DNA from: Burkholderiaceae bacterium
GTDB taxonomy: Bacteria; Pseudomonadota; Gammaproteobacteria; Burkholderiales; Rhodocyclaceae
NCBI GenBank assembly: GCA_021738065.1
Contig: JAIPCT010000009.1
Span: 1-62,265, forward strand
DNA: 62,265 bases
Direction of reading: 5' to 3'
How positions within the stretch are numbered: position 1 is the first letter of the stretch; each line of letters starts with the position of its first letter. The position numbers and the translations under genes are program-made. This document shows, in pieces, positions 1,293 to 58,237 of the stretch. The notes under the pieces were generated by a model. That model made no database searches. It had not been told where the DNA came from and saw only the letters and a list, made by a program, of their open reading frames with translations.

Positions 1293-2303
1293 AAGGCTGA
1301 GCGCCGCTGCCAGATCCATGACGGTCGCGGCATAGAAACTGCTGCGGTTGTAGCGGGTGATGACGTAGAAATTGCGATAACCGAGGCGGTATTCGGTAGC
1401 CTCGCCCGGTGTGACCAGGTCGATCAGTGCGGCAGGACGGTCGGGAAGCGTCTTGGCCCCTACCGCGTGTTCCATCGCCGTGTCGCCAACGCCGACTTTT
1501 ACCAGGCGGACATTGGCAGCCTCCATTTCATTCGGCGTGCGACGCGGCTCAATCCCCTCGCCGATCAGCGCCTGCACGCCATCGCCGCTCGCGGCAACGG
1601 CGGTGGCAATCGGGGCATCTTTTTCCCAGCCATGCTCGGCCAGGTAATTCGCAACGCTGCCTATGGCATCGGCGTTGCTGCTGGCGAGATCGATAACCCC
1701 ATCGTTGTCGAAATCGAGCGCAAAGCGTCGCCGTGAGGACGGCAGGAACTGGGGCAAGCCGATGGCACCGGCGTAGGAGCCGACATAGCTCAGCGCACTG
1801 CGATTCTCTTCGCGGGCCAGTAGCAGCAATGCTTCCAGTTCAGCGCGGAACAAGGCCGTGCGCGGCGGATAGTCGAATGCCAGCGTAGTGAGGGCCGCGA
1901 AGGTGCCATAACGCCCCATGTGCTTGCCGAACAGGGTTTCGACCCCGATGATGGCCGCAATTACCTCGGCCGGCACGCCAAATCGTTTTTCGGCAACACC
2001 GAGCAGCGTCGCGTGAGCCTGCAGGAAACGCTTCCCGGCGGCAATCCGTTTAGGTTCGACAAAACGTCCTCGATACGCCTGCCAGGATCGGATACCGGGA
2101 TCCTTGGGCGGCATGATGGCCTTGATGACCGCGGCAATCGGCTTGGTTTTCCCGAACAGCGCATTCAAGACGATGGGTTCAAACCCGTGCTTCTCATGCA
2201 TTTCCTGAACGAAGGCTTGCACATCCTCGCGCTGGGCGTAGTTTTCGGCGCGTGCACTGACGCAAAGCAATGGTAGCGCGAGCAGAAGAATCAAGCGGAT
2301 CAT
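1284..2303 (-). CDS. mltB: Lytic murein transglycosylase B
   Basis: 339 residues with a signal sequence at 1-19 (hydrophobic, ending SARA). The MltB signature IGVETLFG (119-126) carries the catalytic Glu122, followed by YAGAIGLPQFLPSS (167-180). It cleaves the MurNAc-GlcNAc bond of peptidoglycan in the periplasm. The start ATG at 2303 overlaps the stop of the upstream transglutaminase gene (ATGA), so translation is probably coupled. A longer frame extends upstream but lies inside that neighbour. Residues 269-277 (KVGVGDTAM) are encoded by a copy of the dispersed repeat at 1473-1500, apparently in a loop near the C-terminus. Confidence 0.92.
   Translation of the reverse strand: MIRLILLLALPLLCVSARAENYAQREDVQAFVQEMHEKHGFEPIVLNALFGKTKPIAAVIKAIMPPKDPGIRSWQAYRGRFVEPKRIAAGKRFLQAHATLLGVAEKRFGVPAEVIAAIIGVETLFGKHMGRYGTFAALTTLAFDYPPRTALFRAELEALLLLAREENRSALSYVGSYAGAIGLPQFLPSSRRRFALDFDNDGVIDLASSNADAIGSVANYLAEHGWEKDAPIATAVAASGDGVQALIGEGIEPRRTPNEMEAANVRLVKVGVGDTAMEHAVGAKTLPDRPAALIDLVTPGEATEYRLGYRNFYVITRYNRSSFYAATVMDLAAALSLSQ
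1473..1500 (+). repeat. Dispersed repeat copy 1 (in mltB)
   Basis: Copy of the ~25 bp repeat with core GCCAACGCCGACTTTT. It is read by mltB on the other strand as KVGVGDTAM, in frame. Confidence 0.8.
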
Positions 2304-4276
2304 GGTGTGAAGGCGGCAATTTTTGCCTTGAGCAGCTTGAGATCGGTGGCGTCCGGTGCGGGGCCATAGCGCAGTCGGGCATACAGCCCGGCGATTTCGC
2401 GGATGCTTCCGGCACGGTCTGGCGCGTAAGTCGCGGCACGGTCTGGCGCGTAAGTCGCGGCACGTTCGGCGAAATCCAGCGGTCCTTCCCAGGGGCGCCA
2501 GGCGATGCCGCGTTTCGCCATCCGCGCGGTAAATCGCCGCCACGCCGCGAGTGCCGGATCGACGCGCAGCCGGTTGCGCAGGATCCAGGCCGTCAGCCCG
2601 AGCAGGACACCGCCGCAGAGCACCGACAGTGCGGCGGTCATGCTGCGCCAGTCCGGTTCCTTCAGGCCAAGACTGGCGAGCAGGTCGCGTTGGCGCTGCG
2701 GGTTGTAGCCCAGTACCCACTGGTTCCAGCCATTGGTGACGGCATCCAGACGGTTGCGCAGTTCTTTCAACCAGGCCAGATCACCGCGCGCCAGGAAAGG
2801 CAGGGTCTCTCCGGCCGGCACTGCGGCGGCAAAATTGCTGTTGATCCGGCTTGGCGCCGAGATCGCCGTCGGATCGATGCGTACCCATCCGCGGCCGGCG
2901 ATCCAGGCTTCGGTCCAGGCGTGGGCATCGTACTGGCGCACCACCAGATAGCCGTCCACGGGATTGACCTCGCCACCCTGATAGCCGGCAACGACTCGTG
3001 CCGGCACGCCGGCGGAGCGCAGGACATAGACAAATGCGGCGGCAAAGTGTTCGCAGAAGCCGCGTTTGGAATCGAACAGAAAGTCGTCCACCATGTCGGC
3101 GCCCATCAGGGGTGGATTCAGCGTATAGATCAGCAATTGCTGAAGAAACAGGTTTTCCGCGGCGGCAAGGATTGCAGCGCTGTCATCGCCATGCTGCGCG
3201 CGCCAGCCGGCGCCGATGGCGCGAGTCCGCGGGTTGCCGTTCGCTGGCAGTGCCAGCGCCTCTTCGAGGATAGAAGGCGATTCGTCAATGCCGGCGCTGG
3301 CATCGGGCCAGGCGCGCTGGGTGTAGCGCATGCGGTTGCGCACCGCCTGTCGCGCGACGGGTTGGTAATCGCTGGTGAGCGAGCTCTCTGGCGGTAAAGT
3401 CCCAGGGAGTTCCAGGGCGAACAGCCAGAACTGACCGTGCGGCTCCAGGGTCAATTCATAGTCCACCGGGGTGCCGATTTCTTTGTAAGGAACTTTTGAA
3501 TAGGTACCGCGTTTCTTGGTCACGCGCCAGCTGCGCCCATCGAACGCCGGCATCACCGGTCCGCGCCAATAGAGCTGAGATTGCGGCGGAACGTCACCCT
3601 TGAACTGCACCCGGAAGGCGATGGCATCCGATTGCGAGAGTTGGGCAATCGAGCCGGGCGACATTGAATCGGACAAGCCCGATACGGCTGAAAAGCGATC
3701 CTGCGGCAAGCCCCAAAGCGGCCCCTCGACACGCGGAAACAGAAGGAACATCAGCAACATGAAGGGCAGGGCCTGAGCCAGCATCAGGCCCGAGCGGCGC
3801 AGTTGCAGCTGCGGATGGGGCCGGTCGTCGGCCGCCGCAAGCAGTGTTGCGGTGGTCACCACGATGGTGAGAGCCGCCAACAGGGCGGTAGGTATGGTCT
3901 GGGTGAACAAGAACTGGCCAAGGACCAGGAAATAGCACAGCAGCGCGGTGGCAACTGCATCGCGTGCGGCGCGAAGTTCGAGCAGCTTCAGCGCGAGGAA
4001 GACCACCAGCAGCGCAATGCCCGGAGTGCGGCCCATGATGGTTCGGTACTGCAGAAAGACGCCCACCGTGCCGGCGATAACCAGCAACACCAACAGCCAG
4101 CGCGGCGGCAAATGCCATTGCCGCCAGGTCAGCGCGGCGCGCAAGGCGAAGGCGCAGCCGGCGGCAAAGACCAGCCAGGTGGGTATTTGCGGTATCAGCG
4201 GCAGACTGGCAGCCAGGGCTGACGCCAGCAGCCACCAGGCCTGACGGCGACTGACGGGGCGATTACTGCGCGCCAT
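2300..4276 (-). CDS. TgpA-like membrane transglutaminase
   Basis: 658 residues. The N-terminal ~190 residues hold several membrane segments (DUF3488/TgpA-N). A periplasmic transglutaminase core follows with catalytic Cys408 (KRGFCEHFA), His452 (YDAHAWTEAW) and Asp468 (WVRIDPTA). One further membrane segment is at about 545-567, and a DUF4129-like tail ends the protein. In Pseudomonas TgpA is essential; its substrate is not settled. The start at 4276 was chosen because it overlaps the DUF58 stop by 14 bases and removes a non-family N-terminal extension. An 8-residue tandem duplication, AATYAPDR twice (606-621), sits in the tail. It is the second-to-last gene of the moxR-DUF58-tgpA-mltB run. 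Confidence 0.88.
   Translation of the reverse strand: MARSNRPVSRRQAWWLLASALAASLPLIPQIPTWLVFAAGCAFALRAALTWRQWHLPPRWLLVLLVIAGTVGVFLQYRTIMGRTPGIALLVVFLALKLLELRAARDAVATALLCYFLVLGQFLFTQTIPTALLAALTIVVTTATLLAAADDRPHPQLQLRRSGLMLAQALPFMLLMFLLFPRVEGPLWGLPQDRFSAVSGLSDSMSPGSIAQLSQSDAIAFRVQFKGDVPPQSQLYWRGPVMPAFDGRSWRVTKKRGTYSKVPYKEIGTPVDYELTLEPHGQFWLFALELPGTLPPESSLTSDYQPVARQAVRNRMRYTQRAWPDASAGIDESPSILEEALALPANGNPRTRAIGAGWRAQHGDDSAAILAAAENLFLQQLLIYTLNPPLMGADMVDDFLFDSKRGFCEHFAAAFVYVLRSAGVPARVVAGYQGGEVNPVDGYLVVRQYDAHAWTEAWIAGRGWVRIDPTAISAPSRINSNFAAAVPAGETLPFLARGDLAWLKELRNRLDAVTNGWNQWVLGYNPQRQRDLLASLGLKEPDWRSMTAALSVLCGGVLLGLTAWILRNRLRVDPALAAWRRFTARMAKRGIAWRPWEGPLDFAERAATYAPDRAATYAPDRAGSIREIAGLYARLRYGPAPDATDLKLLKAKIAAFTP
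2411..2464. repeat. 24-bp perfect tandem duplication inside tgpA-like gene
   Basis: The unit beginning GGCACGGTCTGGCGCGTAAG is repeated twice without change (2411-2434 and 2435-2458), plus 6 more bases. It adds 8 residues in frame to the cytoplasmic tail of the transglutaminase. Confidence 0.9.
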
Positions 4277-5243: not shown

Positions 5244-5402
5244 GTTCAGCGTGGAGTCACTTGTTTGCAGCGGCGGCGGGCGTCGAGCGAAGCAAGCAAA
5301 CCCGCAGCCTCCCCCAGAAGGGGATGGAAGGGAAAGGGAGCGTCTTCTCGCCGCTTTTGGCCTGTTTCATGGTCTGCCGTACCGTTATCGACCGCATCAA
5401 CC

Positions 5403-6323: not shown

Positions 6324-6401
6324 GGGGTAGGATTATTCTGCAGGCTTTGATGGATAATATGTTTTTCAGAGCATTGTAAGTCATCAGCTCCAGCGCCTCT
6401 C

Positions 6402-12362: not shown

Positions 12363-12387
12363 TCGCCGTATCGCCAGCGCCGACTTT
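12363..12387 (+). repeat. Dispersed repeat copy 2 (intergenic)
   Basis: GCCGTATC followed by GCCAGCGCCGACTTT, between rlmD and the convergent BI-1 gene and just past the terminator palindrome. Confidence 0.8.
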
Positions 12388-12401
12388 CCAGCCGGTCTGC
12401 G

Positions 12402-17080: not shown

Positions 17081-17105
17081 CGCCGTCCCGCCAGCGCCGA
17101 CTTTT
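17081..17105 (+). repeat. Dispersed repeat copy 3 (intergenic)
   Basis: GCCGTCCC followed by GCCAGCGCCGACTTTT-type core in the 158-base spacer between queD and the radical SAM gene. Confidence 0.85.
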
Positions 17106-22183: not shown

Positions 22184-23113
22184 ATGCCGGCCTTCCTGCT
22201 TTCCTTGCTGCTGGTTTTTTTCGTCAGCGCCTGCGCGACTTCGCCTCAGGGGCGTTCGCAATTGCGTGCGCCATCCGCCTTGCTCGGGTTCAGTGCGGTC
22301 TACTCGGAACTGGACATGCGCTTGCAACTGGTGACGGCCGAGGATTCGCCTTCCTGCAGCGATGTCGATTGCGTCGCCGACAGAGAATTTGATCAGCGCA
22401 TCCTCATTCTGGGAAAGCGCCTGACCGATGCCGCCTATCGGCAGCACCCGGATCTGATCTCGCGCTTTGCGCGCTTTGAATTCATCGTTGCCGACAAGGC
22501 CGAAGCCGGATCCGCTTCCAGTGCCGGCGGCACCGTGGTGATATTCCGGGGCCTGCGCCATCTCGAACCGGACGATGTCACCCTGGCTTTCGTGCTGGCG
22601 CGGGAAATGAGCCATGTCATTGCCGGACACCATGAAGAGAACGTCACCACCAGCATTCTGGTCGCGATCGCCACCCAGATTCTGTTTCCCGCGCTGAATA
22701 TCGTGCGTGGCGCCGTGGCGGTAACCGGCGGTGCTGCGACGAGCGCGGCCGGCTCGGCCTTGACGGCGACCGCCGTGACGTCGGCAGCGTCGTTTGCCGG
22801 TGCGCGCGTGCTGCGCGCCAGCGATCGTCCGCAGCAGGTTCAGGAGGCGGAAACCATGGCGATGGCTTTGCTGGCGGGCGCCAAGTGGAATGGCCGCGAG
22901 GTGGCCGATCAACTGGAAGCCCTGGCGCCTGAGACGGCCGAAGACTCTGACTGGACGGAAGAACTGCGCGAATCAGGCCGGCGCATTGCCAGCCTGATGC
23001 AGGGTCCGATGCTGCCGGAGCCCATGGAGCCGAGAGAGCCCGAGCTTGCTTTCGGTCAGATTGCCACGTTGTTGCCGGTCCTGCCGCCGCCGATGGTCAG
23101 CAGGCCGTTCTGA
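22184..23113 (+). CDS. M48-like lipoprotein with degenerate metallopeptidase motif
   Basis: 309 residues. The lipoprotein signal MPAFLLSLLLVFFVSAC is modified at Cys17. The body resembles M48 peptidases: GTVVIFRGLRHLEPDDVTL precedes FVLAREMSHVIAGHHEENV, where the family needs HExxH. The first histidine is Arg here (REMSH), so zinc-dependent catalysis is doubtful unless GHHEE supplies a substitute. A glycine/alanine-rich hydrophobic stretch follows. The start was placed at 22184 because it gives a proper signal peptide. It overlaps the convergent glycine-zipper gene by 58 bases. Confidence 0.75.
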   Translation: MPAFLLSLLLVFFVSACATSPQGRSQLRAPSALLGFSAVYSELDMRLQLVTAEDSPSCSDVDCVADREFDQRILILGKRLTDAAYRQHPDLISRFARFEFIVADKAEAGSASSAGGTVVIFRGLRHLEPDDVTLAFVLAREMSHVIAGHHEENVTTSILVAIATQILFPALNIVRGAVAVTGGAATSAAGSALTATAVTSAASFAGARVLRASDRPQQVQEAETMAMALLAGAKWNGREVADQLEALAPETAEDSDWTEELRESGRRIASLMQGPMLPEPMEPREPELAFGQIATLLPVLPPPMVSRPF

Positions 23114-23784
23114 AGCCTGACGCGATCGCCGCTTTGCCAGGCCGGTGGCGTCTCGCTGCTGAACGTCCGCGTACTGCCATCTTCGAAACGCACGATCACA
23201 TCGTAGCGCTTGCTTTCCTTGGTTGATTTTTCGATGTGATTGCCGGCATAGGCGCCGCCGACAGCGCCGAGCACCGTGGCGATGTCGCGTGTCGCGCCTT
23301 TGCCTATCTGGTTGCCGATAATTCCGCCAACCACGCCGCCGGCGACCGCTCCGCCACCGCTGCCTTTCGGTTCCACGGCCACTTCGCGCACGGCCTCGAC
23401 GACACCGCATTCGTGACACACCGGTGCTGGCGTCGATGCCGCAAAAGTCGGCGCTCGTGACACGGCGACCGCGGGTGATTCGGTCACCGGCGCGGCGCGA
23501 CGGGTGCTGACCGATTCGCGCTTGCTGGGCCGGGTCACGGAAGATGCCTTTTCCTGCGGGACAGGTGCCGGCGGCTGGATCGCGACCGGTGCGGCGGGAG
23601 TGATCTGGGGCGAGGCCAATGCCAGTTTGGCCGGATCGGCATTGCCGGCACCGGGGCCTGGCAGCCAGCCGGCAAGGGTGGCTGCGCCGGCCAGGCTGAG
23701 TATCGTGACCGAGGCGGCGGCGGCCAGCAGCAGCGGGTGCGTGCGCGAGGCGGCGGGTGTCGGGGTGACTTGGTTTGCTTCCAT
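23056..23784 (-). CDS. Glycine-zipper 2TM-domain protein
   Basis: 242 residues from ATG 23784, preceded by AAGGAG. One N-terminal membrane segment (about 18-40, LLLAAAASVTILSLAGAATL) is followed by a proline/alanine-rich linker, then the glycine-zipper block GGGAVAGGVVGGIIGNQIGK and VLGAVGGAYAGNHIEK, as in SlyB/YMGG-type envelope proteins, and a C-terminal domain with YDVIVRFEDGSTRTF. It probably sits in the envelope. Residues about 106-114 (AVSRAPTF) are encoded by a dispersed repeat copy inside the linker. Confidence 0.8.
   Translation of the reverse strand: MEANQVTPTPAASRTHPLLLAAAASVTILSLAGAATLAGWLPGPGAGNADPAKLALASPQITPAAPVAIQPPAPVPQEKASSVTRPSKRESVSTRRAAPVTESPAVAVSRAPTFAASTPAPVCHECGVVEAVREVAVEPKGSGGGAVAGGVVGGIIGNQIGKGATRDIATVLGAVGGAYAGNHIEKSTKESKRYDVIVRFEDGSTRTFSSETPPAWQSGDRVRLQNGLLTIGGGRTGNNVAI
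23443..23468 (-). repeat. Dispersed repeat copy 4 (in glycine-zipper gene)
   Basis: Reverse-orientation copy; core AGCGCCGACTTTT intact with two changes before it. It is read by the host gene as AVSRAPTF in its low-complexity linker. Confidence 0.7.
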
Positions 23785-23870
23785 GATTTGCTCCTTGTGT
23801 GTAGTGCGTGTCAGCACATTACCGTGCGACCGGGCAGGCAAGGGGCAGGCGCAATCAGCTGTTACATCTG

Positions 23871-25802
23871 TTACAAAGCTTCCGCACCGCGGCGCAGTGC
23901 GCGCAGATGAAAGCGGGCGGGATCGACCGCTCGCGCGAGATCGCGCTCAATCGGCAAGGGATCGCCTTCCAGTTGGCTGACGAGCAGTTCTGCCGCCAGC
24001 GGCGCCCAGACCATGCCGCGCGCCGAAAGTCCGAGCAGGGCATGGAGACCGGCCATGCGCGGTAACGTGTTCAGGGTCGGCTCGCGTCCTGCATCTGCCG
24101 CCGTGTCCGCCAGAGTGCCGATCAGCGGCAGTCGATCGGGCGCTGCACTGCGCAGGCCAACGCGGCCGCCGAGTCGCGCCAGATCAATACCCTGTGCGGT
24201 ACCCGGCAGCAGTTCGTCAAGTCGTTGCATGTTGCCGTCATGGTCGGCCAGTCGCATGCACAAATCGGTGTCGTCGCGATCAAAACTTGCGCCGACGCTG
24301 ATCACGCCGGCTTGTGCCGGAGTGACATAGCCGGCGCGACACAGCACGTGATGCAGGGACGCCTCGATATGGGCAGCCTGGTCTTTGGGCAGGCAGCTGA
24401 TCTGGCCGCGAATCGGCGTCAGGGGCAGGCTGCGGGGCAGCAGCCGGTTGGCGGAGTCGGCGTTGGCGAGGATGACGTGAGGCGCCGTCGCCAAGACCCG
24501 TTGTTGGGCGTCGAAGACCTGCCAGCCGTCCGTCGTTTCTCTCAGCGCCGCCACCTCGGTATTGAATTGAGCATGGACGAAGCGGCGAGCGGCCATCAGC
24601 AGGGTGGTACAGACGCTGCCCGGACTGGCCCAGCCACCGCCGGGAAACCACCAGCCGCCGTGGGCCATCGAGTGGCCGACGAGGCTGGACGCCGCTTCCT
24701 GTTCGAGGAAGCAGACGAATTCTTCCGGCAGTTCCAGTTGCCGCACGGTTTCACGTTGCAAGGCCTCGTGGGCCGGATCGCGGGCGATCTGCAGCACGCC
24801 GCAGGGCGACCAGCGCAGTGTGGGAAGCCCGGCAAAGCGGTGCAGCGCATACAGGTAACAGGCGCGGGAAAATCGAGCCGCCAGTGCATCATCCTTCGCC
24901 AGATGCGGCAGCAGGATTCCCGCCGGGTTGCCGGAGGCTTCCTGCGCGGGAGCGGCATGGCGTTCAAACAGTTCAACCTGCCAGCCGCGACTGGCCAGAC
25001 GTTCGCAGACTGCCGTGCCGGCAAGTCCGGCGCCGATGACGATGGCACGTCGCTCAAGCGGTGGCCGAGGCAGGCGAAAAGTCGGCGTTGGCGATACGGC
25101 GTTCTCAAGGCAACCGATCAGCATTTCGCGCTTTGCGGCGAAACCGGGGCGACGCTCCAGCCGCCAGCCCACCTGTTCCATGGCACGGCGGACTTCCCCG
25201 GCAACGCTCCAGGTTGCCAGCGTCGCCCGGGGTTTGCACAGGCGGGTAATGGTGCGGAGCAGTGCGGCAGACCACAACTCGGGGTTTCTTGCTGGCGAGA
25301 AACCGTCGAGATAGACAGCGTCGATGTTTGCCACCAGTTGTGGCAGCAGGGTCTGCGCTTCGCCAAACAGGAGTGTCAGCGTCACGCTGCCGTCGTCAAA
25401 ATGCAGACGATGAAACCCCGGCGTCAGTGGCGGCCATTGCGCCAGCAGCTCTGCGGCGAGGCTGTTCAACTCGGAATGCGGCGCCAGCAAGCCGGCAAGG
25501 TCATTGCGGCGGAAGGGATGCTGTTCCACCGAGACAAAATGCAGGCGGCCGCCTGACTTCGATGCGCGCCATGCCTGCCAGGTGGCGAGAAAATTCAGGC
25601 CGAGGCCGAAGCCGGTTTCGAGAATGGAGAAACTGCCGCTGCCGATCCAGCGTTCGGGAAAGTCATTGCCGCGAATAAAAACGTGACGGGCTTGTTCCGC
25701 TGCGCCGTGTGTCGCGTGATAGACATCGTCGTAGATCGACGAATACGGCGTGCCGTCACCGGCTGCCGCCGGTTCGGCGGGAACCAGCGGAATCGGTTTC
25801 AC
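23871..25802 (-). CDS. mnmC: Bifunctional tRNA mnm5s2U biosynthesis protein MnmC
   Basis: 643 residues with two fused enzymes. The N-terminal methyltransferase (about 1-230) has the SAM motif ILETGFGLGLNFLATW and DAVYLDGFSPARNPELW. The C-terminal FAD oxidoreductase begins with the dinucleotide-binding AIVIGAGLAGTAVCERLASR (about 250-270). Together they finish the mnm5 modification at the wobble uridine of some tRNAs. The linker between the domains (AVSPTPTF, residues about 234-242) is encoded by a dispersed repeat copy. It lies 7 bases past lysS on the same strand. Confidence 0.93.
   Translation of the reverse strand: MKPIPLVPAEPAAAGDGTPYSSIYDDVYHATHGAAEQARHVFIRGNDFPERWIGSGSFSILETGFGLGLNFLATWQAWRASKSGGRLHFVSVEQHPFRRNDLAGLLAPHSELNSLAAELLAQWPPLTPGFHRLHFDDGSVTLTLLFGEAQTLLPQLVANIDAVYLDGFSPARNPELWSAALLRTITRLCKPRATLATWSVAGEVRRAMEQVGWRLERRPGFAAKREMLIGCLENAVSPTPTFRLPRPPLERRAIVIGAGLAGTAVCERLASRGWQVELFERHAAPAQEASGNPAGILLPHLAKDDALAARFSRACYLYALHRFAGLPTLRWSPCGVLQIARDPAHEALQRETVRQLELPEEFVCFLEQEAASSLVGHSMAHGGWWFPGGGWASPGSVCTTLLMAARRFVHAQFNTEVAALRETTDGWQVFDAQQRVLATAPHVILANADSANRLLPRSLPLTPIRGQISCLPKDQAAHIEASLHHVLCRAGYVTPAQAGVISVGASFDRDDTDLCMRLADHDGNMQRLDELLPGTAQGIDLARLGGRVGLRSAAPDRLPLIGTLADTAADAGREPTLNTLPRMAGLHALLGLSARGMVWAPLAAELLVSQLEGDPLPIERDLARAVDPARFHLRALRRGAEAL
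25077..25101 (-). repeat. Dispersed repeat copy 5 (mnmC interdomain linker)
   Basis: GCCGTATC plus GCCAACGCCGACTTTT on the minus strand, read as AVSPTPTF exactly between the two catalytic domains of MnmC. Confidence 0.85.
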
Positions 25803-27349: not shown

Positions 27350-28454
27350 TCAAATGCCTTGTTTCAGGCTCGCTTCGATGAACTGGTCAAGGTCGCCGTC
27401 GAGCACTTTCTGGGTGGCCGAGATTTCGACATTGGTGCGCAAATCCTTGATGCGTGAGTTGTCGAGCACGTAGCTGCGAATCTGGTGACCCCAGCCGACA
27501 TCGGTCTTGCCGGCTTCGAGCTTGTCGGCTTCGGCCTGGCGCTTGCGCAGTTCGAGTTCGTAGAGGCGTGATTTCAGCATCGTCATGGCCTCCGCGCGGT
27601 TGCGGTGCTGCGAGCGGTCATTCTGGCATTGCACCACGATGCCGGTCGGGGCGTGGGTGATGCGGATCGCCGAGTCGGTCTTGTTGATGTGCTGGCCGCC
27701 GGCACCCGAGGCGCGAAAGGTATCGACGCGCAGGTCGGCGGGATTGATCTCGATCTCGATCGAATCGTCGATCTCGGGATAGACGTAGAGGCTGGCGAAG
27801 CTGGTGTGTCGTCCGCCGGAGGAATCGAAGGGCGACTTTCGCACCAGGCGGTGCACGCCGGTTTCGGTGCGCAGGAAGCCGTAGGCATAGTCGCCCTCAA
27901 CCTTGATCGAGGCGCTGCGTATGCCGGCCACATCGCCTTCGGTCTGTTCCAGCAATTCGGTCTTGAAGCCCTTGCGTTCGCAGTATTTCAGGTACTGGCG
28001 CAGCAGCATCGAGGCCCAGTCGCAGGCTTCGGTACCGCCGGCGCCGGCCTGGATGTCGATGAAGCAGTTGTTGGGGTCGGCCGGGTTGTTGAACATGCGT
28101 CGAAATTCGAGGTCGGCGACCAGACTTTCGGCCGCATCAAGATCGCTTTCGACGGCTGCCAGGGTTTCCTGGTCTTCTTCCTCGCGGGCCAGTTCGAACA
28201 GATCGCGGGCCTCGGCAAGCCGCCCACCGACGCCGGTGAGCGTGCCGACCACGGCTTCCAGGGATTTTTTCTCGCGCCCCAGCAACTGGGCGCGCTCGGT
28301 GTCATCCCAGAGCTTCGGATCTTCGAGGATCTGGTTCAGTTCGCTGAGTTTTTCCGCTTTTCCGTCGTAGTCAAAGATACCTCCGCAGTTGCTCGCTGCG
28401 ACCGGCAAGGTCGGCGATACGGTTGGCGAGGGCGTTGATGCGTTCGGCGTCCAT
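27350..28454 (-). CDS. prfB: Peptide chain release factor 2 (programmed +1 frameshift)
   Basis: Expressed as one protein of about 367 residues from two frames: 27 codons from ATG 28454 to an in-frame TGA at 28373-28371, then a +1 shift onto GAC and 340 further residues. The downstream part has the stop-codon tripeptide in [10 protein letters not shown] and the peptidyl hydrolysis motif [17 protein letters not shown]2 reads UGA and UAA. The internal UGA makes synthesis self-regulated: low RF2 favours the shift. It is upstream of lysS in the same direction. Confidence 0.96.
28370..28385 (-). promoter_or_regulatory. prfB recoding (frameshift) site
   Basis: Minus strand reads CGG AGG TAT CTT TGA C: an internal Shine-Dalgarno-like GGAGG three bases before the slippery CTT and the UGA stop followed by C. 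This is the canonical RF2 frameshift arrangement. Confidence 0.95.
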
Positions 28455-34395: not shown

Positions 34396-34407
34396 CCTAA
34401 AAACCTC

Positions 34408-34542
34408 ACCACAGAGACACAGAGGCACAGAGAAAGGCGATGAATCAAGGCCGCATGAATTGAAGGTCTCTCATCCTTTGGGTGATCCGCCTTCGCGGCG
34501 CACCATTTTGTTTTTCCTCTGTGTTCTCTGTGCCTCTGTGGT
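34408..34542. repeat. Inverted repeat with CACAGAG arms (copy A)
   Basis: Left arm ACCACAGAGACACAGAGGCA (34408 on) is matched by a right arm ending TGTGCCTCTGTGGT (to 34542), about 75 bases apart. The inner arms are imperfect. It fills most of the spacer between the carbonic anhydrase and helicase genes. Confidence 0.75.
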
Positions 34543-34579
34543 CCAATTGAGTTTTGCAGGGTCATGGGTTTGCTCCCGC

Positions 34580-36472
34580 TCAGCGTTCGCGCTTCTTCCA
34601 TTCGGGCTTCGCGCCCTCGGGCCTTTTCCAGGCCGGCTTCTTGCTGTCGCGTGCGGGCGGTGCGCGGCGCGGCGGCCGGGTATCGACAAACTCGCCCGGC
34701 TCCATGACGCGCGTCTTGAGCGCGAACTGGCGGACGCGGATGCGGCGCAGGATGTCCATCAGGTCGGCCGACAAATTGGCCGGCAGTTCCACCGAGGTGT
34801 AGTCGTCGAAGAGATTGATCTGGCCGATGTCCTTGCCGGCGATGCCCGCTTCGTTGGCAATGGCGCCGACGATTTCCTTGGGCAGCACACCCTGGTTGCG
34901 CCCGATCTCGATGCGATAGCGCGCCAGCGTTCCCGGCGCGAACTCGCGCTGCTTCACCGGCGTGTCGCTGCGACCTTCCTTGGCTGGACGTTCGCGGCGC
35001 GGCTCGGCAGCGGGGTAGCTTTCATCTGATTTTGCGCGTGCCTTGAAATCCGGCTTGCGCTCCTTGTCGCGTGCAAAACTCGGCGCTGGTGATACGGCGC
35101 CGGGAAGCGGGGCGGCCTCGCGCGGCGCATGGTCGTTGGCGCCCGGCATTTGCAATGGGCGTTCGCGCGTCGCCAGCCAGGCCAGCGCGGCGGCGATCTC
35201 GCGGGCGGCGATGTCGTTCTCGCCTTCGATGCGGCGCACTACGTCGAAAAAGAAATCCAGCTTCTCCGTCTTGATGATGTCGACGATCTGCTGTGTGAAC
35301 TGCGCGACTCGACGATTCGCAACTTCGCCGGGCGTCGGCATGGTCAGCGCGGTGATCTTCTGTTTGGTGGCGCGCTCGATCAGCTTCAGCATGTACATCT
35401 CACGCGGCGCCAGGAACAGGATGGCGCGACCGGTGCGGCCGGCACGGCCGGTGCGGCCGATGCGGTGCACGTAGGCTTCGGTATCGTAGGGCACGTCATA
35501 GTTGATGACATGGCTGACCCGCGCCACATCGAGGCCGCGCGCGGCGACGTCGGTGGCGACGACGATGTCGATGGTGCCGGCCTTGAGGCGCTCGATGACC
35601 TGCTCACGCAGGCCCTGGGTCAAGTCGCCATTGGGCGCCGCCACGGAGTAGCCGCGCGCCTCCAGTTTGTCGGCGAGTTCGACGGTGGCGGTCTTGGTCC
35701 GCACGAAAATAATGGCCGCATCGAAGTCGTCCTCGACTTCGAGGATGCGCGTCAGGGCTTCGAGCTTCTGCCCGGTGTGTGTCTGGCAATAGGACTGGCT
35801 GGTGGTCACCACCGTCGATGTCGCCGAACGGATCTTGACTTCGCGCGGTTCGCGCAAGTGCTGGTGCGCGACGCGACGGATCACGTCCGGCATGGTGGCG
35901 GAGAACAGCGCGGTCTGCCGCTCAGCCGGGGTGTGTTCGAGTATCCACTTGACGTCGTCGATGAAGCCCATGCGCAGCATTTCGTCGGCTTCGTCCAGCA
36001 CCAGCGTCTGCAGATTGTTCAGCACCAGACTCTTGCGCTCGAGGTGGTCCATGACGCGACCCGGCGTGCCGACGATGACGTGGGTGCCGCGCGACAGGGC
36101 GCGCAACTGCACCACCATGCTCTGTCCGCCATAAATCGGCAGCACGTGGAAGCCGGGCATGTGGTGGGCGTACTTCTGCAAGGCTTCGGCGACCTGGATC
36201 GCCAGTTCGCGTGTCGGCGTCAGGATCAGTGCCTGCGGCACGGCGCGGGCCAAGTCGATTTTCTGCAGCAACGGCAGGGCGAAGGCGGCGGTCTTGCCGG
36301 TACCGGTCTGGGCTTCGCCGAGCAGGTCCTGGCCGGCCAGCAGTATCGGGATGCAGGCGGCCTGAATCGGCGAGGGTGTTTCGTAGCCGACGTCGGCGAG
36401 GGCCTTGAGCAATGGCTGGGCAAGCCCGAGGGCGTCAAACCCGATGGCGATGTTGTCTGGGGAGGTGGTCAT
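34580..36472 (-). CDS. deaD: DEAD-box RNA helicase, DeaD/CsdA type
   Basis: 630 residues. Motifs in order: Q motif FDALGLAQPLLKALADVGYE, AQTGTGKTAAFALPLLQ, PTRELAIQVAE, VLDEADEMLRMGF, SATMP, ATDVAARGLDVARV and HRIGRTGRAGRTGRA. A C-terminal RNA-binding DbpA-like domain (RYRIEIGRNQGVLPKEIVGA) and a basic tail make the DeaD type. It acts in ribosome assembly and mRNA decay, often in the cold. The linker after the core contains a dispersed repeat read as AVSPAPSF (about 458-466). Confidence 0.92.
   Translation of the reverse strand: MTTSPDNIAIGFDALGLAQPLLKALADVGYETPSPIQAACIPILLAGQDLLGEAQTGTGKTAAFALPLLQKIDLARAVPQALILTPTRELAIQVAEALQKYAHHMPGFHVLPIYGGQSMVVQLRALSRGTHVIVGTPGRVMDHLERKSLVLNNLQTLVLDEADEMLRMGFIDDVKWILEHTPAERQTALFSATMPDVIRRVAHQHLREPREVKIRSATSTVVTTSQSYCQTHTGQKLEALTRILEVEDDFDAAIIFVRTKTATVELADKLEARGYSVAAPNGDLTQGLREQVIERLKAGTIDIVVATDVAARGLDVARVSHVINYDVPYDTEAYVHRIGRTGRAGRTGRAILFLAPREMYMLKLIERATKQKITALTMPTPGEVANRRVAQFTQQIVDIIKTEKLDFFFDVVRRIEGENDIAAREIAAALAWLATRERPLQMPGANDHAPREAAPLPGAVSPAPSFARDKERKPDFKARAKSDESYPAAEPRRERPAKEGRSDTPVKQREFAPGTLARYRIEIGRNQGVLPKEIVGAIANEAGIAGKDIGQINLFDDYTSVELPANLSADLMDILRRIRVRQFALKTRVMEPGEFVDTRPPRRAPPARDSKKPAWKRPEGAKPEWKKRER
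35075..35099 (-). repeat. Dispersed repeat copy 6 (deaD linker)
   Basis: GCCGTATC then ACCAGCGCCGAGTTTT: two changes from the consensus core. It is read in frame as AVSPAPSF in the disordered segment between the helicase core and the C-terminal domain. Confidence 0.75.
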
Positions 36473-38041: not shown

Positions 38042-38069
38042 CATCGCCGTAGCGCCAGCGCCGACTTTT
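38042..38069 (+). repeat. Dispersed repeat copy 7 (intergenic)
   Basis: CATCGCCGTAGC then GCCAGCGCCGACTTTT with a complete core, between the MFS gene and the methyltransferase gene. Confidence 0.85.
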
Positions 38070-45755: not shown

Positions 45756-45780
45756 AAAAGTCGGCGCTGGCGAGACGGCG
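45756..45780 (-). repeat. Dispersed repeat copy 8 (intergenic)
   Basis: Reverse-orientation copy with complete core GCCAGCGCCGACTTTT on the minus strand, just after the cysteine hydrolase stop. Confidence 0.88.
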
Positions 45781-49568: not shown

Positions 49569-49571
49569 GCG

Positions 49572-51422: not shown

Positions 51423-51442
51423 AGGGCTTCCTTTCGGGGTGA

Positions 51443-53023
51443 TCAGAGAGGTGTGGCGGGAACAAATTGCTCGCGAAGTTCGCGTTTGAGGATTTTGCCG
51501 ATGGCGCTGCGCGGCAGCTCGTCGATGAGGGTGACTAAGGCAAGGCGTTGGGTCTTGCCCAGGCGCTGGTTGGCCCAGTCGCGTATCTGCATCGCCGTCT
51601 CGCCAGCGCCGACTTTTGGGCGACTGTCCGGTGCCGGCTGAATCACGACGAAAGCGACCGGGGTTTCGCCCCAGCGCTCCGATGCGACACCGACCACCGC
51701 CACTTCGGCCACCGCCGGGTGCTGGATCAGCACGGCTTCCAGATCGCTGGGATAGATGTTGAAGCCGCCGGAAATGATCATGTCCTTGCTGCGGTCCAGC
51801 AGAGTCAGGAAACCGTCGGCATCGAAGCGGCCGATGTCGCCGGTGCGGATGAAACGCTTGCCATCCGGCGCATACCATTCGGCTTTGCGTGTCTTCTCCG
51901 GCTGCCGGTGGTAGCCGCTCATCATGGCCGGCGAATGGCCCACCACTTCGCCGATTTGACCCGGCGCGACTTCGCGGCCGTCTTCGTCGATCAGGCGTAT
52001 GTCATGGCCCTCGGCCGGCAGGCCGACGGTGGCGAGTTTGTCCGGGTGCTCGTGGGCATGGAGAATACAGGTGCCGCCGCCTTCAGTCATGCCGTAGTAC
52101 TCGACCAGGCCGCCGGGCCAGCGTCGGAGAATGTCGGCTTTCAGCGTGCCGGCGAAGGGCGCGCTGGTGCATAGCTTGGTGCGGAAGCTGGACAGGTCGT
52201 ACCGGTCAAAATCCGGGTGGGCCATCAATCGCCGGTATTGCACCGGCACCAGCATGCTGTGGGTGGCACGGTATTTCTCGGCCAGCACCAGATAGTTCGC
52301 CGCATCGAATTTCGCCATCAGCACCACGGTGCCACCCAGGCCTATGGCGGGGAGAAAGCTGACCAGCGTGGTGTTCGAGTACAGCGGCGTGGCGATCAGC
52401 GTCACCGCATCCGGTCCATAGCCCTGCAGCCCGGCGCGCTGGGTGTGCGACCAGCGCATGGCATGGGGCTGCACGATACCTTTGGGCGTGCCGGTGGTGC
52501 CGGAGGAATAGATGATGTTGAAGGGCCATTCGGCTTGGATATCGACAGCGACGGGGGCCGCGCTTGTCGGCGCCAGCCAGCCGGAAAAGGGTTCGCATCC
52601 GGCGGCATTGTCGAGCGCAATGAAGCGGGCCGGAATATTGGCGCGGACAGCTGCCAGTTCGCCGGCCGTGGCGGCGTCGACGAACAGCAGCCGGGCATCG
52701 GAGTTGGCGATCATGTCGGCCAGGCTCTGCGGCGTCGAGGAGGGCGCCAGTGGCGCCACTGCGACACCGGCGCGCAAGGCGCCGAGAAACACCGTTGCAT
52801 ACTCGAGGGAGGTGCCGGCGCAGATCGCCACGGATTCGGTGGCGCGAATTCCGTCGCGCTGCAGGGCGGCGGCGACGCGATCCATCATGGCATCGAGCTC
52901 GGCGAAGGTCATCCTGCGGCCGTCCTGGATCAGCGCCGGGTGAGCGGGCCGGTTGCGTGCGTGGCGGCGAATCAGCTCGCCATGGCTACCGAAGGACTGT
53001 TCGATGAGCTCGCCGGGCCGCAT
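51443..53023 (-). CDS. Acyl-CoA synthetase (AMP-binding)
   Basis: 526 residues. Motifs: IIYSSGTTGTPKGIVQPHAM, EYYGMTEGGGTCI, FIRTGDIGRFDADGFLTLLD, DRSKDMIISGGFNIYPSDLE and the C-terminal LPRSAIGKILKRELRE with the catalytic Lys. It activates a carboxylic acid to its CoA ester for the operon's dehydrogenases. Residues about 469-478 (KVGAGETAM) are a dispersed repeat copy inserted in the mobile C-terminal domain, upstream of the A10 lysine. It is 2 bases after the MaoC-like gene. Confidence 0.92.
   Translation of the reverse strand: MRPGELIEQSFGSHGELIRRHARNRPAHPALIQDGRRMTFAELDAMMDRVAAALQRDGIRATESVAICAGTSLEYATVFLGALRAGVAVAPLAPSSTPQSLADMIANSDARLLFVDAATAGELAAVRANIPARFIALDNAAGCEPFSGWLAPTSAAPVAVDIQAEWPFNIIYSSGTTGTPKGIVQPHAMRWSHTQRAGLQGYGPDAVTLIATPLYSNTTLVSFLPAIGLGGTVVLMAKFDAANYLVLAEKYRATHSMLVPVQYRRLMAHPDFDRYDLSSFRTKLCTSAPFAGTLKADILRRWPGGLVEYYGMTEGGGTCILHAHEHPDKLATVGLPAEGHDIRLIDEDGREVAPGQIGEVVGHSPAMMSGYHRQPEKTRKAEWYAPDGKRFIRTGDIGRFDADGFLTLLDRSKDMIISGGFNIYPSDLEAVLIQHPAVAEVAVVGVASERWGETPVAFVVIQPAPDSRPKVGAGETAMQIRDWANQRLGKTQRLALVTLIDELPRSAIGKILKRELREQFVPATPL
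51590..51617 (+). repeat. Dispersed repeat copy 9 (acyl-CoA synthetase)
   Basis: CATCGCCGTCTC then GCCAGCGCCGACTTTT with complete core; read on the opposite strand as KVGAGETAM in the C-terminal domain. Confidence 0.88.
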
Positions 53024-53025
53024 GC

Positions 53026-53511: not shown

Positions 53512-53543
53512 GAATATGTCGTCCCAGGAAAAATAATGGCCTT

Positions 53544-53622
53544 TCACCACAGAGACACACAGACGCAGAGAACTTCAAAAGCAATTTTCTTGTTCCGGCT
53601 TTTCTCTGTGTCTCTGTGATGA
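53544..53622. repeat. Inverted repeat with CACAGAG arms (copy B)
   Basis: Left arm TCACCACAGAGACACACAGA (53544 on) and right arm TCTCTGTGTCTCTGTGATGA (to 53622). Arms are the same family as the repeat at 34408-34542. It lies between the ComB-like and MaoC-like genes inside the operon. Confidence 0.75.
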
Positions 53623-53634
53623 GGTATTTCAGTT

Positions 53635-54366: not shown

Positions 54367-54380
54367 CGGCGGCGCGGCGT

Positions 54381-54833: not shown

Positions 54834-55612
54834 GGCTGTGCTCCGTGAATCTTCTCCGGATTGGGGATGCGCTTTTCAAGGAAGGCGCTGAAAATTTCCT
54901 TGGCGGCAGGCGCGGCGACCAGGTCGGCAAAGAAAATCACTTCTTCGTCCATGGCCTCGATGGCGCTGCGCTCGGGTGGGCGCTTCATCAGGGCCTTGGT
55001 CACGGCAAGCGACTGCGCCGGCTGCGCGGCAAGCTTTTTCGCGGCGGCCAGCGCCGTTTCCATCAGTTGTTCCGGCGCGACGACGCGATTGACGATGCCG
55101 GCGGCGCAGGCAGTATCGGCGCTGAACGGCTCGCCGAGCAGCAGCAGTTCGGCGGCGCGCTGATGTCCGGCCAGCCTGGGCAGTAACAGGCTGGAGCCGG
55201 CTTCCGGGCACAATGCGAGATTGACGAAGGGCAGCTGAAACAGGGCGTTGTCGGCGGCATAGACCAGGTCGCAATGCAGCAGCAAGGTGGTGCCGATGCC
55301 CACGGCATTGCCGGCAACCGCCGCCACCAGCGGTTTTTCAAACGCCGACAGCAAATGCAGGAAAGGAATCGCCGCGCTGGGGTCACTCGCCTTGCGCTGC
55401 AGGAAGTCACTCAGGTCGTTGCCTGAGGTGAACAAGTCGTCCTGGCCGCGAATCAGCACGACCTTGACGTGGCTCTGTTCGCGCGCATGGCCCAGGGCTA
55501 CGCTCAAGGCGCGATACATGGCGCTGGTGATGGCGTTCTTTTTCTCGCGGCGGCTGATCTCGATGCTGCAGATGCCGTCGTGCTGGCTGACGAGAATATT
55601 GGGGTGGTCCAT
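54830..55612 (-). CDS. Enoyl-CoA hydratase/isomerase family protein
   Basis: 260 residues from ATG 55612. Blocks: ISRREKKNAITSAMYRALSV, IRGQDDLFTSGNDLSDFLQR, VAGNAVGIGTTLLLHCDLVY and VNLALCPEAGSSLLLPRLAG. The arrangement is close to the crotonase at 13272 in this window, including GNDLSDF and the LALCPEAGSSLLLP block. It probably acts as enoyl-CoA isomerase or hydratase. It is third gene of the operon, 65 bases after the second acyl-CoA dehydrogenase. Confidence 0.88.
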   Translation of the reverse strand: MDHPNILVSQHDGICSIEISRREKKNAITSAMYRALSVALGHAREQSHVKVVLIRGQDDLFTSGNDLSDFLQRKASDPSAAIPFLHLLSAFEKPLVAAVAGNAVGIGTTLLLHCDLVYAADNALFQLPFVNLALCPEAGSSLLLPRLAGHQRAAELLLLGEPFSADTACAAGIVNRVVAPEQLMETALAAAKKLAAQPAQSLAVTKALMKRPPERSAIEAMDEEVIFFADLVAAPAAKEIFSAFLEKRIPNPEKIHGAQP

Positions 55613-55677
55613 TGCTGTCCTCTTGGTTGCGGCCGGAGGGCGTCGCACCGTGGTGCGGCCCGTGGTGCTTTGCCTCG

Positions 55678-56802
55678 TCAGTCCGCCAGCAGCGTATCGC
55701 TGAAGCGGCCGAGATGGTAGTCGGCGTCGCCGAAGCTCAGTCCGATCATGGTCAGGCGCTTGAAGTAATGGCTGACGTTGAGTTCATCGACCACGCCCAT
55801 GCCGCCATGCAGTTGCACCGCCTGTTGGCCGACCAGTCGCGCCGACTGCGTGACATAGGCTTTTGCCGCGGCTACTGCGCGACGGCGTTCCGTGGCGTCG
55901 GCCGAATCAACCCGCACCGCGGCGAGCGTGGCCATGGAGCGCGCCTGTTCGGTGGCGATCACCATGTCGGCCATGCGGTGCTGCAAGGCCTGGAAGTTGC
56001 CGATCGGGACGCCGAACTGCTTGCGCGTCTTGAGGTATTCCAGCGTGATTTCATTGAGTGCCGACATGATGCCGACGGCTTCGGCGCACAGTGCCGCATT
56101 GGCATGGTCGAGCGCGCGTTCGACGATCGGCAGTGCATCGCCCGCGCTGCCGATCAAGGCGGCCGCATCCACTTCAACACCGGTGAACGTCATGTTCGCG
56201 GCCCGCGCACCATCCTGTGTCGGGTAGGGGCGCAGGGCAAGGCCGGGCGCTTTGGCATCGACCAGATAGAGTGAAATTCCCTTCTCGTCGCGTGCCGAAA
56301 CAATCAGCTTGTCGGCCGCTGGCGCGCCGAGGACGACGGCCTTGGCGCCGTCGAGTTTCAAGCCTTTGCCAGAGACAGTGGCGCGGGTGCTGACGCGATC
56401 GAGTTCATGGCGGCCACCGGGCTCGAAATGGGCCAGCGCCAGCATCAGCTCGCCGGCGCCGAGGGCGGGCAGGATGGCTTCTTTCTGCGCGGTACTGGCG
56501 GCATCGCGGATCAGGCCGCCGCACAGGATGACGGTGGACAGGTAGGGCTCCAGCGCGAGCCCACGGCCGAGCATTTCCATTACCAGCAGGCTGTCGACGC
56601 CATTGCCGTTCAGGCCGCCGAATTCCTCGGGAAAGGGCAGGGCGAGAATGCCCAGTTCAGCGTAGGTTTTCCAGGCCGGGCGCGAGAAGCCGTCGGCGGA
56701 TTTCGCCAGTGCGCGGCGCTGCTCGAAAGCGTAGTCGCGGGCGATAAAGCGGCGCAGGGTGTCTTGCAGCGCCAGTTGTTCTTCGGTGTAGTTGAAGTCC
56801 AT
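55678..56802 (-). CDS. Acyl-CoA dehydrogenase, small subunit (PimD-like)
   Basis: 374 residues starting MDFNYTEEQLALQDTLRRFI. Family blocks: WKTYAELGILALPFPEEFGG, RKQFGVPIGNFQALQHRMAD, and QAVQLHGGMGVVDELNVSHY. The overall form resembles the small subunit of two-part acyl-CoA dehydrogenases such as pimeloyl-CoA dehydrogenase. The stop of the large subunit and this start are 3 bases apart. FAD-dependent, likely in a heterotetramer with the next-upstream gene product. Confidence 0.88.
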   Translation of the reverse strand: MDFNYTEEQLALQDTLRRFIARDYAFEQRRALAKSADGFSRPAWKTYAELGILALPFPEEFGGLNGNGVDSLLVMEMLGRGLALEPYLSTVILCGGLIRDAASTAQKEAILPALGAGELMLALAHFEPGGRHELDRVSTRATVSGKGLKLDGAKAVVLGAPAADKLIVSARDEKGISLYLVDAKAPGLALRPYPTQDGARAANMTFTGVEVDAAALIGSAGDALPIVERALDHANAALCAEAVGIMSALNEITLEYLKTRKQFGVPIGNFQALQHRMADMVIATEQARSMATLAAVRVDSADATERRRAVAAAKAYVTQSARLVGQQAVQLHGGMGVVDELNVSHYFKRLTMIGLSFGDADYHLGRFSDTLLAD

Positions 56803-56805
56803 GGT

Positions 56806-58023
56806 TCAGAGTCCGAGAATCATCTGCGAGATGATATTTTTCTGGATTTCGTTCGAACCACCGTAGATGGTGGTCTTGCGCACGTTGAAATACTGGCCGG
56901 AGAGCGGCGCGGCATGGTCGCCGTAGGCTTGCAGCATGGGCTCGCCCGACCAGTCGGCGTTCAGCCCGTCTTCGATGTAGGGTAAGGCATAGGGGCCCAG
57001 AGCCTGCATTTTCAGTTCGGTCAGCATCTGCTGGATTTCCGATCCCTTGATCTTGAGGATGGATGCCTCCGGTCCCGGCGCGCCTTTTTTGCCCTCGCCG
57101 GCACTTTCGGCGGAGACCACGCGCAGGTGGGTGATTTCCAGCGCCATGAGCTCGAGTTCGACCTGTGCGATGCGATCGCGGAAGCGCTGATCCTCGATCA
57201 GCGGCCGGCCATTGGCCGTTTCCACGCTCGCGATCTGCTTCAGTTTTTTCAGTTCCCGCTTGGAGCGGCCCACGCCGGCGATGCCGGTGCGTTCGTGTCC
57301 GAGCAGAAATTTGGCGTAGGTCCAGCCCTTGTTTTCCTCGCCGATCAGATTTTCGACGGGCACCTTGACGTCCTCGAACCAGACTTCGTTGATCTCATGT
57401 TCGCCGTCCATCATGATGATCGGCCGCACGCTGACGCCCGGGCTTTTCATGTCGATCAGCAGAAAGGAAATGCCGGCTTGCTGGCGGCCTTCGGTGCTGG
57501 TGCGCACCAGGCAGAAAATCCAGTCGGCGTGTTGGCCGAGCGTATTCCAGGTCTTCTGGCCGTTGATCACGTAGTGATCGCCTTCCCTGACCGCGCGGGT
57601 TTTCAGCGAGGCCAGGTCGGAGCCCGAACCGGGCTCGGAATAACCCTGGCACCACCAGTCGCTGCCATCGACAATGCGCGGCAGAAAGCGCTGCTGTTGC
57701 GCCGGGCTGCCATAGGCCATGATCACCGGCGCCACCATCTTGAGCCCGAAGGGCAGTTGCATCGGCGCGCCGGCATCGGCGCATTCCTCTTCGAAGATAT
57801 GCTGCTGTATGGCGTTCCAGCCGGGGCCGCCAAATTCCGCGGGCCAGGAAATCGCCCCCCACCCCTGCTGATGCAGGATTTTTTGCCAGCGGACAAAATC
57901 GTCTTTTTCCATGCGTTTGCCACCCAGCACCTTGCGGCTGAGGTCGGCCGGCAGCTTGTCGCGCAGGAAGCCGCGTACTTCTTCCCTGAACTGCCGCTGC
58001 TCGGCGGTGAAATTGAGGTCCAT
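56806..58023 (-). CDS. Acyl-CoA dehydrogenase, large subunit (PimC-like)
   Basis: 405 residues from ATG 58023 (MDLNFTAEQRQFREEVRGFL). Blocks: GWGAISWPAEFGGPGWNAIQ, GYSEPGSGSDLASLKTRAVR (FAD and substrate contacts) and IYGGSNEIQKNIISQMILGL. The last block has Gly where many acyl-CoA dehydrogenases carry the catalytic Glu (YEG), typical of the pimeloyl-CoA dehydrogenase large subunit group, so the base must lie elsewhere. It is first in the operon; an operator-like block lies 42 bases upstream. Confidence 0.9.
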   Translation of the reverse strand: MDLNFTAEQRQFREEVRGFLRDKLPADLSRKVLGGKRMEKDDFVRWQKILHQQGWGAISWPAEFGGPGWNAIQQHIFEEECADAGAPMQLPFGLKMVAPVIMAYGSPAQQQRFLPRIVDGSDWWCQGYSEPGSGSDLASLKTRAVREGDHYVINGQKTWNTLGQHADWIFCLVRTSTEGRQQAGISFLLIDMKSPGVSVRPIIMMDGEHEINEVWFEDVKVPVENLIGEENKGWTYAKFLLGHERTGIAGVGRSKRELKKLKQIASVETANGRPLIEDQRFRDRIAQVELELMALEITHLRVVSAESAGEGKKGAPGPEASILKIKGSEIQQMLTELKMQALGPYALPYIEDGLNADWSGEPMLQAYGDHAAPLSGQYFNVRKTTIYGGSNEIQKNIISQMILGL

Positions 58024-58057
58024 GGATAGTGAGTCCTTTGAAAGTTGGAATTGGCAG

Positions 58058-58090
58058 TGCAGAACTGCATTGCAGAACAAGATTCTGCAA
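58058..58090. promoter_or_regulatory. Shared operator candidate, site 2, with perfect palindrome
   Basis: TGCAG-AA-CTGCA at 58058-58069 is followed by TTGCAGAA-CAAGA-TTCTGCAA at 58070-58090, a perfect 8-bp inverted repeat. Positions 58065-58087 match site 1 (42571-42593) at 18 of 23. It lies 35-67 bases upstream of the large-subunit start, where a repressor could act. Confidence 0.6.
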
Positions 58091-58209
58091 TAATGCTACG
58101 GCAGATTGTACCCAATCACAAGGCGTCGACGCGCGACAGCGGGTCACGCGGTAATTCGCGGCGGACCTCGATCACGATCGAGGATCGTTCCGGCGGTGAT
58201 TTGCCTGCT

Positions 58210-58237
58210 CATCGCCGTCTCGCCAGCGCCGACTTTT
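58210..58237 (+). repeat. Dispersed repeat copy 10 (intergenic)
   Basis: CATCGCCGTCTC then GCCAGCGCCGACTTTT, identical to the copy at 51590 over 28 bases. It ends 14 bases before the -35 box of tRNA-His. Confidence 0.9.

Follow-up and report, generated by a model that had tools for sequence, protein, structure and literature searches.

A 25-bp repeat dispersed through genomes of part of the Rhodocyclaceae may act as a recognition site resembling a DNA uptake sequence

Uptake sequences and other dispersed repeats

DNA uptake sequences (DUS) of the Neisseriaceae, which are read by the minor pilin ComP, are asymmetric and dispersed, with copies in both orientations that number in the hundreds to thousands (PMC3630211), and in this they resemble a 25-bp repeat that we have analysed in a 62,265-nucleotide stretch of DNA (the window) from a member of the Rhodocyclaceae (assembly GCA_021738065.1, contig JAIPCT010000009.1). 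The same study describes DUS dialects that track the phylogeny and can be a single base apart, one genome with two dialects in near-equal number, five genomes of the family without an obvious DUS copy, and a preference for permissive regions with inverted pairs at terminators (PMC3630211). Each of these traits, namely dialects, a dual-dialect genome, element-free members and permissive sites, recurs for the Rhodocyclaceae element. The uptake signal sequences (USS) of the Pasteurellaceae are also dispersed asymmetric motifs, with a 17-base extended form (eUSS), and only two families are named as known to use uptake motifs (PMC12616744).

The element differs from the DUS in its length (25 bp compared to 10–12), in its abundance (~400 copies in 3.4 Mb compared to ~1900 in 2.2 Mb), in its unrelated sequence, in the family that carries it and in its presence in phage contigs. 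Its sequence and class are unrelated to the USS as well, and for the element both a role in uptake and a receptor are putative. Among other dispersed repeats, the repetitive extragenic palindromic (REP) elements of the RAYT transposases are short, of about the size of our element and frequent between genes. In contrast to them, the element has no palindrome, over half of its copies are genic and its positions are conserved between species, and REP-like hairpins occur instead inside or in place of the element in relatives. FtsK-orienting polar sequences (KOPS) and Chi sites are 8 bp long and strand-biased; the element is similar to them in having many asymmetric copies per chromosome but not in its orientation, as described below.

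We see roughly an even chance that the 25-bp repeat, where it occurs in the Rhodocyclaceae, is a genome-wide recognition site that works in the manner of a DNA uptake sequence. No paper containing the 16-base core of the element as one word, and none mentioning DNA uptake sequences together with Rhodocyclales, was found in a search that did not extend to bioRxiv preprints or to most papers behind a subscription. Literature on Sulfuritalea repeats and genomes held nothing on this element by title among the matches listed, and literature on natural transformation or competence in Rhodocyclaceae held nothing on it by title and start of abstract.

The repeat unit and its genome-wide abundance

The conserved unit is an asymmetric 25-mer with sharp edges, CGCCGTVTCGCCAGCGCCGACTTTT, and a T is preferred (59%) just before it, giving a site of 25–26 bp. 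The profile was built from 90 copies (≤4 mismatches) in 462,265 bases of the source genome (G000), that is the window plus 400 kb, and the information falls near to background on both sides of T+CGCCGTVTCGCCAGCGCCGACTTTT. Counting from base 1 of the 25-mer, base 6 (T) and bases 17–20 (CCGA) are invariant in these copies, and A, C or G usually stands at base 7. The asymmetric, sharp-edged profile agrees with the earlier view that the unit is not a palindrome and has no shared flanks; no palindromic or hairpin unit was found in the 25-mer profile, on which, and not on a folding run, this statement is based. When up to 6 mismatches were allowed, the same sample contained 100 copies as compared to 2, 0 and 1 for three shuffled consensuses. 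Since just 16 of the 100 copies have 4–6 mismatches, decayed copies do not form a long tail.

In the whole source genome (3,395,880 bases, 87.6% complete), the 25-mer with ≤2 mismatches was found 407 times (213 forward, 194 reverse) and its reversed pattern not at all, while the 16-base core with ≤2 mismatches was found 585 times as compared to 22 for the reversed pattern. The preliminary description had extrapolated from ten copies to several hundred in a genome, and the counts agree with this; they are neither below about 20 nor equal to those of shuffled sequence. All ten copies were recovered where it had placed them, with cores that are exact in five and carry 1–2 mismatches in the rest, and its even division into intergenic and genic copies holds as well, four of the genic copies residing in predicted genes and one in an open reading frame (ORF) of 261 aa (Table 1). 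With ≤3 mismatches, the window contains the core 16 times, whereas 100 dinucleotide-preserving shuffles contained it 1.20 times on average and never more than 4 times.

A tandem array of seven 24–25 bp units is present on contig 38 of the source genome (L257:11465-11640), where it occupies the gap that follows a gene.

Conversion of the sites in lineage-specific dialects

All of the 31 genus genomes searched contain the element, which occurs in lineage-specific spellings. We counted exact 21-base patterns with A at base 19, with T at base 17 or with the standard spelling. A-type copies number 246 in G001, 292 in G015 and 311 in G027 as compared to 0–6 in the other 28 genomes, while 38, 36 and 41 standard copies, respectively, remain in the three. 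In these species base 19 is A instead of G in 87–89% of 284–352 copies. G011 contains 192 T-type and 192 standard copies, the T-type being present 0–4 times in the other 30 genomes.

In a tree of 24 relatives, built from 20,393 columns BLAST-mapped to the window with unequal coverage, G001, G015 and G027 form one clade (support 1.000) on a stem of 0.037 substitutions per site. Its sister is the standard-type G022 (397 standard copies and no A-type), and G011 lies beside the standard-type G005 and G028. At seven orthologous sites, base 19 is A in all 14 copies of the A-clade and G in 62 of the 63 copies of the other relatives (G011 left out). In the fetched segments, base 19 is A in 9 of 11 copies of G015, 12 of 15 of G027 and all three of G001, and base 17 is T in six of eight copies of G011. 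The spellings are thus lineage dialects that follow phylogeny and were converted in place. Respelling of 87–89% of scattered sites in the same manner after so short a stem means that something must recognise the motif as such.

The shift is confined to the element. In sequence that does not belong to the motif, GCCGAC and GCCAAC occur in similar proportions in the A-type genomes (212:59 in G027 and 121:37 in G015) and in the standard-type genomes (139:41 in G022 and 122:42 in G005).

Conservation at orthologous positions

The preliminary description had proposed a comparison of orthologous loci. Segments from the 24 relatives, each spanning part of the window, were compared at nine of the ten window sites (the site at 45756 lies outside the fetched segments). 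The element is present at the orthologous place in 89 of 129 site-by-relative comparisons. It is found in all 15 relatives covered at 12364, 11 of 13 at 17081, 15 of 18 at 35075, 15 of 19 at 51593, 3 of 4 at 23443, 12 of 17 at 1476 and 9 of 13 at 25077. The sites at 38045 (3 of 13) and 58213 (6 of 17) are patchy, which shows that copies are both gained and lost. The absent calls take in copies that an insert has split and copies that escaped the match rule or the mapping, such as G018 at 35075, where a copy was found nearby, and G002 and G030 at 25077. The bases directly adjacent to the elements can hardly be aligned without gaps (45% identity to the source locus), and the elements themselves have 85% identity, a value that is inflated because the copies were chosen by a match rule. 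Target-site duplications of 4–8 bases are not seen beyond chance at the element copies.

Short inserts, some of them REP-like hairpins, split the element in G010 and G028 at 1476, in G028 at 17081 and in G007, G002 and G023 at 51593, and in G025 a REP-like hairpin stands in place of the element at 51593. Related hairpins are also present near 12364 in G005 and G028. Reception of inserts was considered as a function of the element and rejected: six relatives have inserts at three of the window sites, but these are permissive places, where inserts need not indicate a preference for the element.

Distribution within the Rhodocyclaceae

Copy number (≤2 mismatches) ranges from 5 to 407 in the genus and, when G016 is excluded, from 56 to 407, an approximately seven-fold range. 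The same search in 30 genomes from other genera or families gave one copy each in three. Among 150 genomes from 68 sampled genera of the family, judged from record titles to be the Rhodocyclaceae, more than 200 copies are present in just six genera (g1, g32, g43, g62, g70 and g88). One further genus (g69) has 78 copies, with the GCGTCGAC spelling predominating among the matches listed, g47 has 24 and 3, g80 has 19, and all further genera have 0–8 per genome; reversed-pattern controls gave 0–2 across the 150 genomes. Outside the family, 386 genomes of the order contain 0–5 copies with a slightly looser pattern, for which the reversed controls gave 0–4. The element is confined to part of one family.

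A record search found exact copies in at least 112 stretches. Most titles among the 80 records listed name Rhodocyclaceae, Rhodocyclales, Sulfuritalea, Sulfurisoma (S. sediminicola BSN1 is one of the records with the exact site) or Rugosibacter, and a few name other taxa such as Thiobacillus, Geobacteraceae and metagenome-assembled genomes of Gammaproteobacteria. The genus to which the window belongs may be Sulfuritalea-like. Among plasmid records, 34 had a match at E ≤10, the best with E 0.3, and no convincing full copy was present among them.

Near-complete loss in one genome

G016, which is listed as 99% complete, contains 10 exact copies, whereas its nearest relatives G004 and G010 (tree support 0.936) contain 244 and 204. 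What appears to be a decayed remnant of the element is present at its helicase site. By a rough estimate for 15 fixed bases on a branch of 0.12 substitutions per site, unprotected sites would fall to ~15% or less, and neutral bases would change more than this branch length indicates. Once the force that maintains the sites was lost, passive decay would therefore suffice. Loss of the ComEC channel was considered as the cause and is ruled out, as ComEC is intact in 30 of the 31 genus genomes, G016 among them. The ComEC family is also widespread in the control genomes (10 of 14). GspH minor pilins, present in 30 of the 31 genus genomes, have no discriminating power.

Placement and orientation of the copies

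Genes were called with a codon-model finder trained on the sample. In the source genome, 49 of 90 copies lie wholly in genes though 90% of the DNA is coding, and in 800 kb of a complete relative (G002) 82 of 126 copies lie in genes though 91% is coding. Convergent gaps are richest, with 1.98 copies per kb in both genomes, followed by co-directional gaps (1.15 in G000 and 0.59 in G002), divergent gaps (0.38 and 0.45) and coding DNA (0.12 and 0.11). Genic copies on the opposite strand favour one frame, which encodes the small flexible peptide KVGAG[D/E]TA (24 of 30 copies in G000 and, in G002, 17 of 21 within its first 400 kb), while same-strand copies are more mixed, the commonest frame accounting for 11 of 19 and 9 of 16, respectively. 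Inverted pairs are few: the 126 copies of G002 include two head-to-head pairs spaced 30–31 bp apart (L275 and L279). Judging from the sequence, a pair of this kind might fold into a hairpin with a T-run at its end and thereby resemble a bidirectional terminator. The enrichment in convergent gaps and permissive linkers and the two inverted pairs that could form hairpins recall the DUS as these have been described (PMC3630211).

The preliminary description had suggested a bias in orientation relative to replication as a check. No such bias was seen in the 800 kb of G002, where 67 copies are on the leading and 59 on the lagging strand as assigned by GC skew (P = 0.53). The unbiased orientation argues against polar chromosome signals of the KOPS or Chi kind, which were rejected. 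The copies are spread evenly in G002, and their counts in 40 stretches of 20 kb are Poisson-like (variance/mean 0.90). An RNA or transcript element was also rejected, as the orientation that prevails in co-directional gaps is not the same in the two genomes, with 20 opposite to and 2 along the genes in G000, a count inflated by one tandem array, and 3 opposite and 7 along in 400 kb of G002. A scan of the window with Rfam found only three tRNAs.

Table 1. The element in the window and in inspected viral stretches
Feature	Position	Strand	Match or copies	Context
Element copy	1476..1500	+	1 mismatch	In predicted gene 1284-2303 (-), ORF with SLT_2 transglycosylase family match
Element copy	12364..12388	+	1 mismatch	Intergenic, convergent gap
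Element copy	17081..17105	+	1 mismatch	Intergenic, divergent gap
Element copy	23443..23467	-	2 mismatches	In ORF 23056-23841 (-), 261 aa, Pfam glycine-zipper match; ORF omitted by the codon-model gene finder
Element copy	25077..25101	-	1 mismatch	In gene 23871-25802 (-), methyltransferase and FAD oxidoreductase domains
Element copy	35075..35099	-	2 mismatches	In DEAD-box helicase gene 34580-36472 (-)
Element copy	38045..38069	+	1 mismatch	Intergenic, co-directional gap
Element copy	45756..45780	-	0 mismatches	Intergenic, convergent gap
Element copy	51593..51617	+	0 mismatches	Near 3' end of AMP-binding enzyme gene 51443-53023 (-)
Element copy	58213..58237	+	0 mismatches	Intergenic, gap upstream of tRNA-His (58329-58404)
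Weak eleventh copy	61108..61132	-	4 mismatches	In predicted gene 60722-62263 (+)
Viral stretch	L213		3 copies	Portal, head protein, primase
Viral stretch	L218		6 copies in 13.4 kb	Integrase, ParB-like, SSB
Viral stretch	L212		4 copies	Gam-like, methyltransferase
Viral stretch	L187		2 copies	Primase, exonuclease
Viral stretch	L186			DnaB-like helicase
Viral stretch	L229			Methyltransferase

Interpretation and alternative explanations

These observations imply a motif-specific reader that acts in trans and a process that keeps the sites in step. Uptake sequences behave in this way, since DNA that bears the correct tag enters cells and recombines more frequently. We infer that a protein reads the site, that this protein takes part in DNA uptake and that the sites are homogenised by transformation. 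In the mechanism that we propose, the transformation machinery would include a DNA receptor at the cell surface with a preference for fragments bearing the 25-bp site, recombination with such fragments would restore damaged sites, and the same recombination would spread the spelling that matches the receptor. Sites would persist in permissive places such as gene ends, linkers and gaps, and a change in the receptor would be followed by a change of the sites in step. The preliminary description had named an uptake signal, a chromosome-organising signal and a protein-binding site as possible roles: a site read in trans is well supported, an uptake-like role is the best fit among the signal readings, and a polar signal has to be given up. 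That the Rhodocyclaceae possess a third, independently evolved uptake-sequence system, with a 25-bp receptor-read site and dialects, and that temperate phages carry its tag as a passport, is a more tentative proposal, to which we give a little under an even chance.

Several points count against a role in uptake. No uptake or competence data for these bacteria were found in the literature searched. The density of ~1 copy per 8 kb is several times below that of known uptake sequences, the motif is 25 bp long as compared to 9–12 for these, and a tandem array of seven units is unusual for an uptake sequence. Loss of the sites in G016 is not coupled to loss of the ComEC channel. Codon typicality lends no support to a preference for core genes, since genes with a copy are slightly less typical in G000 (0.357 as compared to 0.380, sd 0.012) and do not differ in G002. 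Finally, a mark confined to the core genome would not predict carriage by phages, and for this reason the phage copies belong here too: of seven viral stretches inspected, four have clear phage genes beside several copies (2–6 each; Table 1). Prophages may belong to the gene pool that recombines, or the tag may be of advantage to them.

The main rival to an uptake sequence is a site bound by an intracellular protein that organises the chromosome or marks self DNA, with selection on each site keeping and shifting the sites. The even spread in G002 and the conserved positions would suit such a protein, and phages carrying copies could mimic the host mark. However, the site appears nearly dispensable, having been lost in G016 and varying from 56 to 407 copies elsewhere in the genus; it has no polarity; and for the same base to change at ~250 sites within 0.037 substitutions per site, selection would have to be strong at each of them, which makes this explanation rather unlikely in our view. 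We consider it improbable that the element is a mobile or copied short repeat inserting in permissive places, for example a REP-like unit served by a transposase in trans. The seven-unit array, the copies in phage contigs, the large differences in copy number between species and the location in permissive places are all as expected of such a repeat, but orthologous positions are kept across the genus, target-site duplications are lacking beyond chance, the dialects changed in place at orthologous sites, and the unit has neither a palindrome nor shared flanks. The mobile short interspersed element that the preliminary description had entertained is rejected as the principal explanation in view of the conserved positions, the in-place dialect change and the lack of target-site duplications beyond chance.

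A mutation process specific to the motif, such as cytosine methylation followed by deamination, could produce dialects without uptake or selection for binding. It would agree with this that both changes are transitions, the one to T as well as the one to A, which at a CpG amounts to C to T on the complementary strand. However, sub-sequences outside the element are unchanged, G011 also has a G to T change at base 19, which is a transversion, and such a process leaves both the persistence of the element in 30 of the 31 genomes and its decay in G016 unexplained. It is, in our opinion, the least probable of these explanations, with only a slim chance of being right.

If a third uptake lineage does exist, it would show how such systems arise, and would do so in environmental bacteria. 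Co-evolution of a receptor and its sites is directly testable in the A clade as compared to G022, in G011 with its two equal dialects and in G016 after the loss. If the element does not serve in uptake, hundreds of scattered sites respelled together within one genus still need an explanation.

Copies in viral contigs and other observations

Fifty-nine viral-contig stretches with the exact site, a sample selected for having a copy, contain 101 copies (≤3 mismatches) in 582,552 bases. The exact A-type pattern, which is looser than that of the exact-site search, was found in one viral stretch. Two proteins of L227, one of the stretches inspected, were scanned and gave no match.

Clusters of copies were also seen in two genomes that are otherwise poor in the element. 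Five of the eight copies in G135 lie within 41 kb (G135:C1:1461266-1502267), and G210 has three near-exact copies in ~5 kb (G210:C3:26360-30943). This is what would be expected of DNA from an element-rich donor, and such clusters could mark gene transfer.

The window also contains repeats other than the element. An intergenic dispersed repeat of ~160 bp (34396-34555) has 93% identity to G000:C88:12053-12212, and a slightly longer stretch has 83% identity to G000:C46:1603-1787. A segment of ~185 bp at ~27575-27759, in gene 27350-28408, matches a second place at 80–88% in many genomes of the genus (for example G000:C10:1077-1253), which is probably a paralogue.

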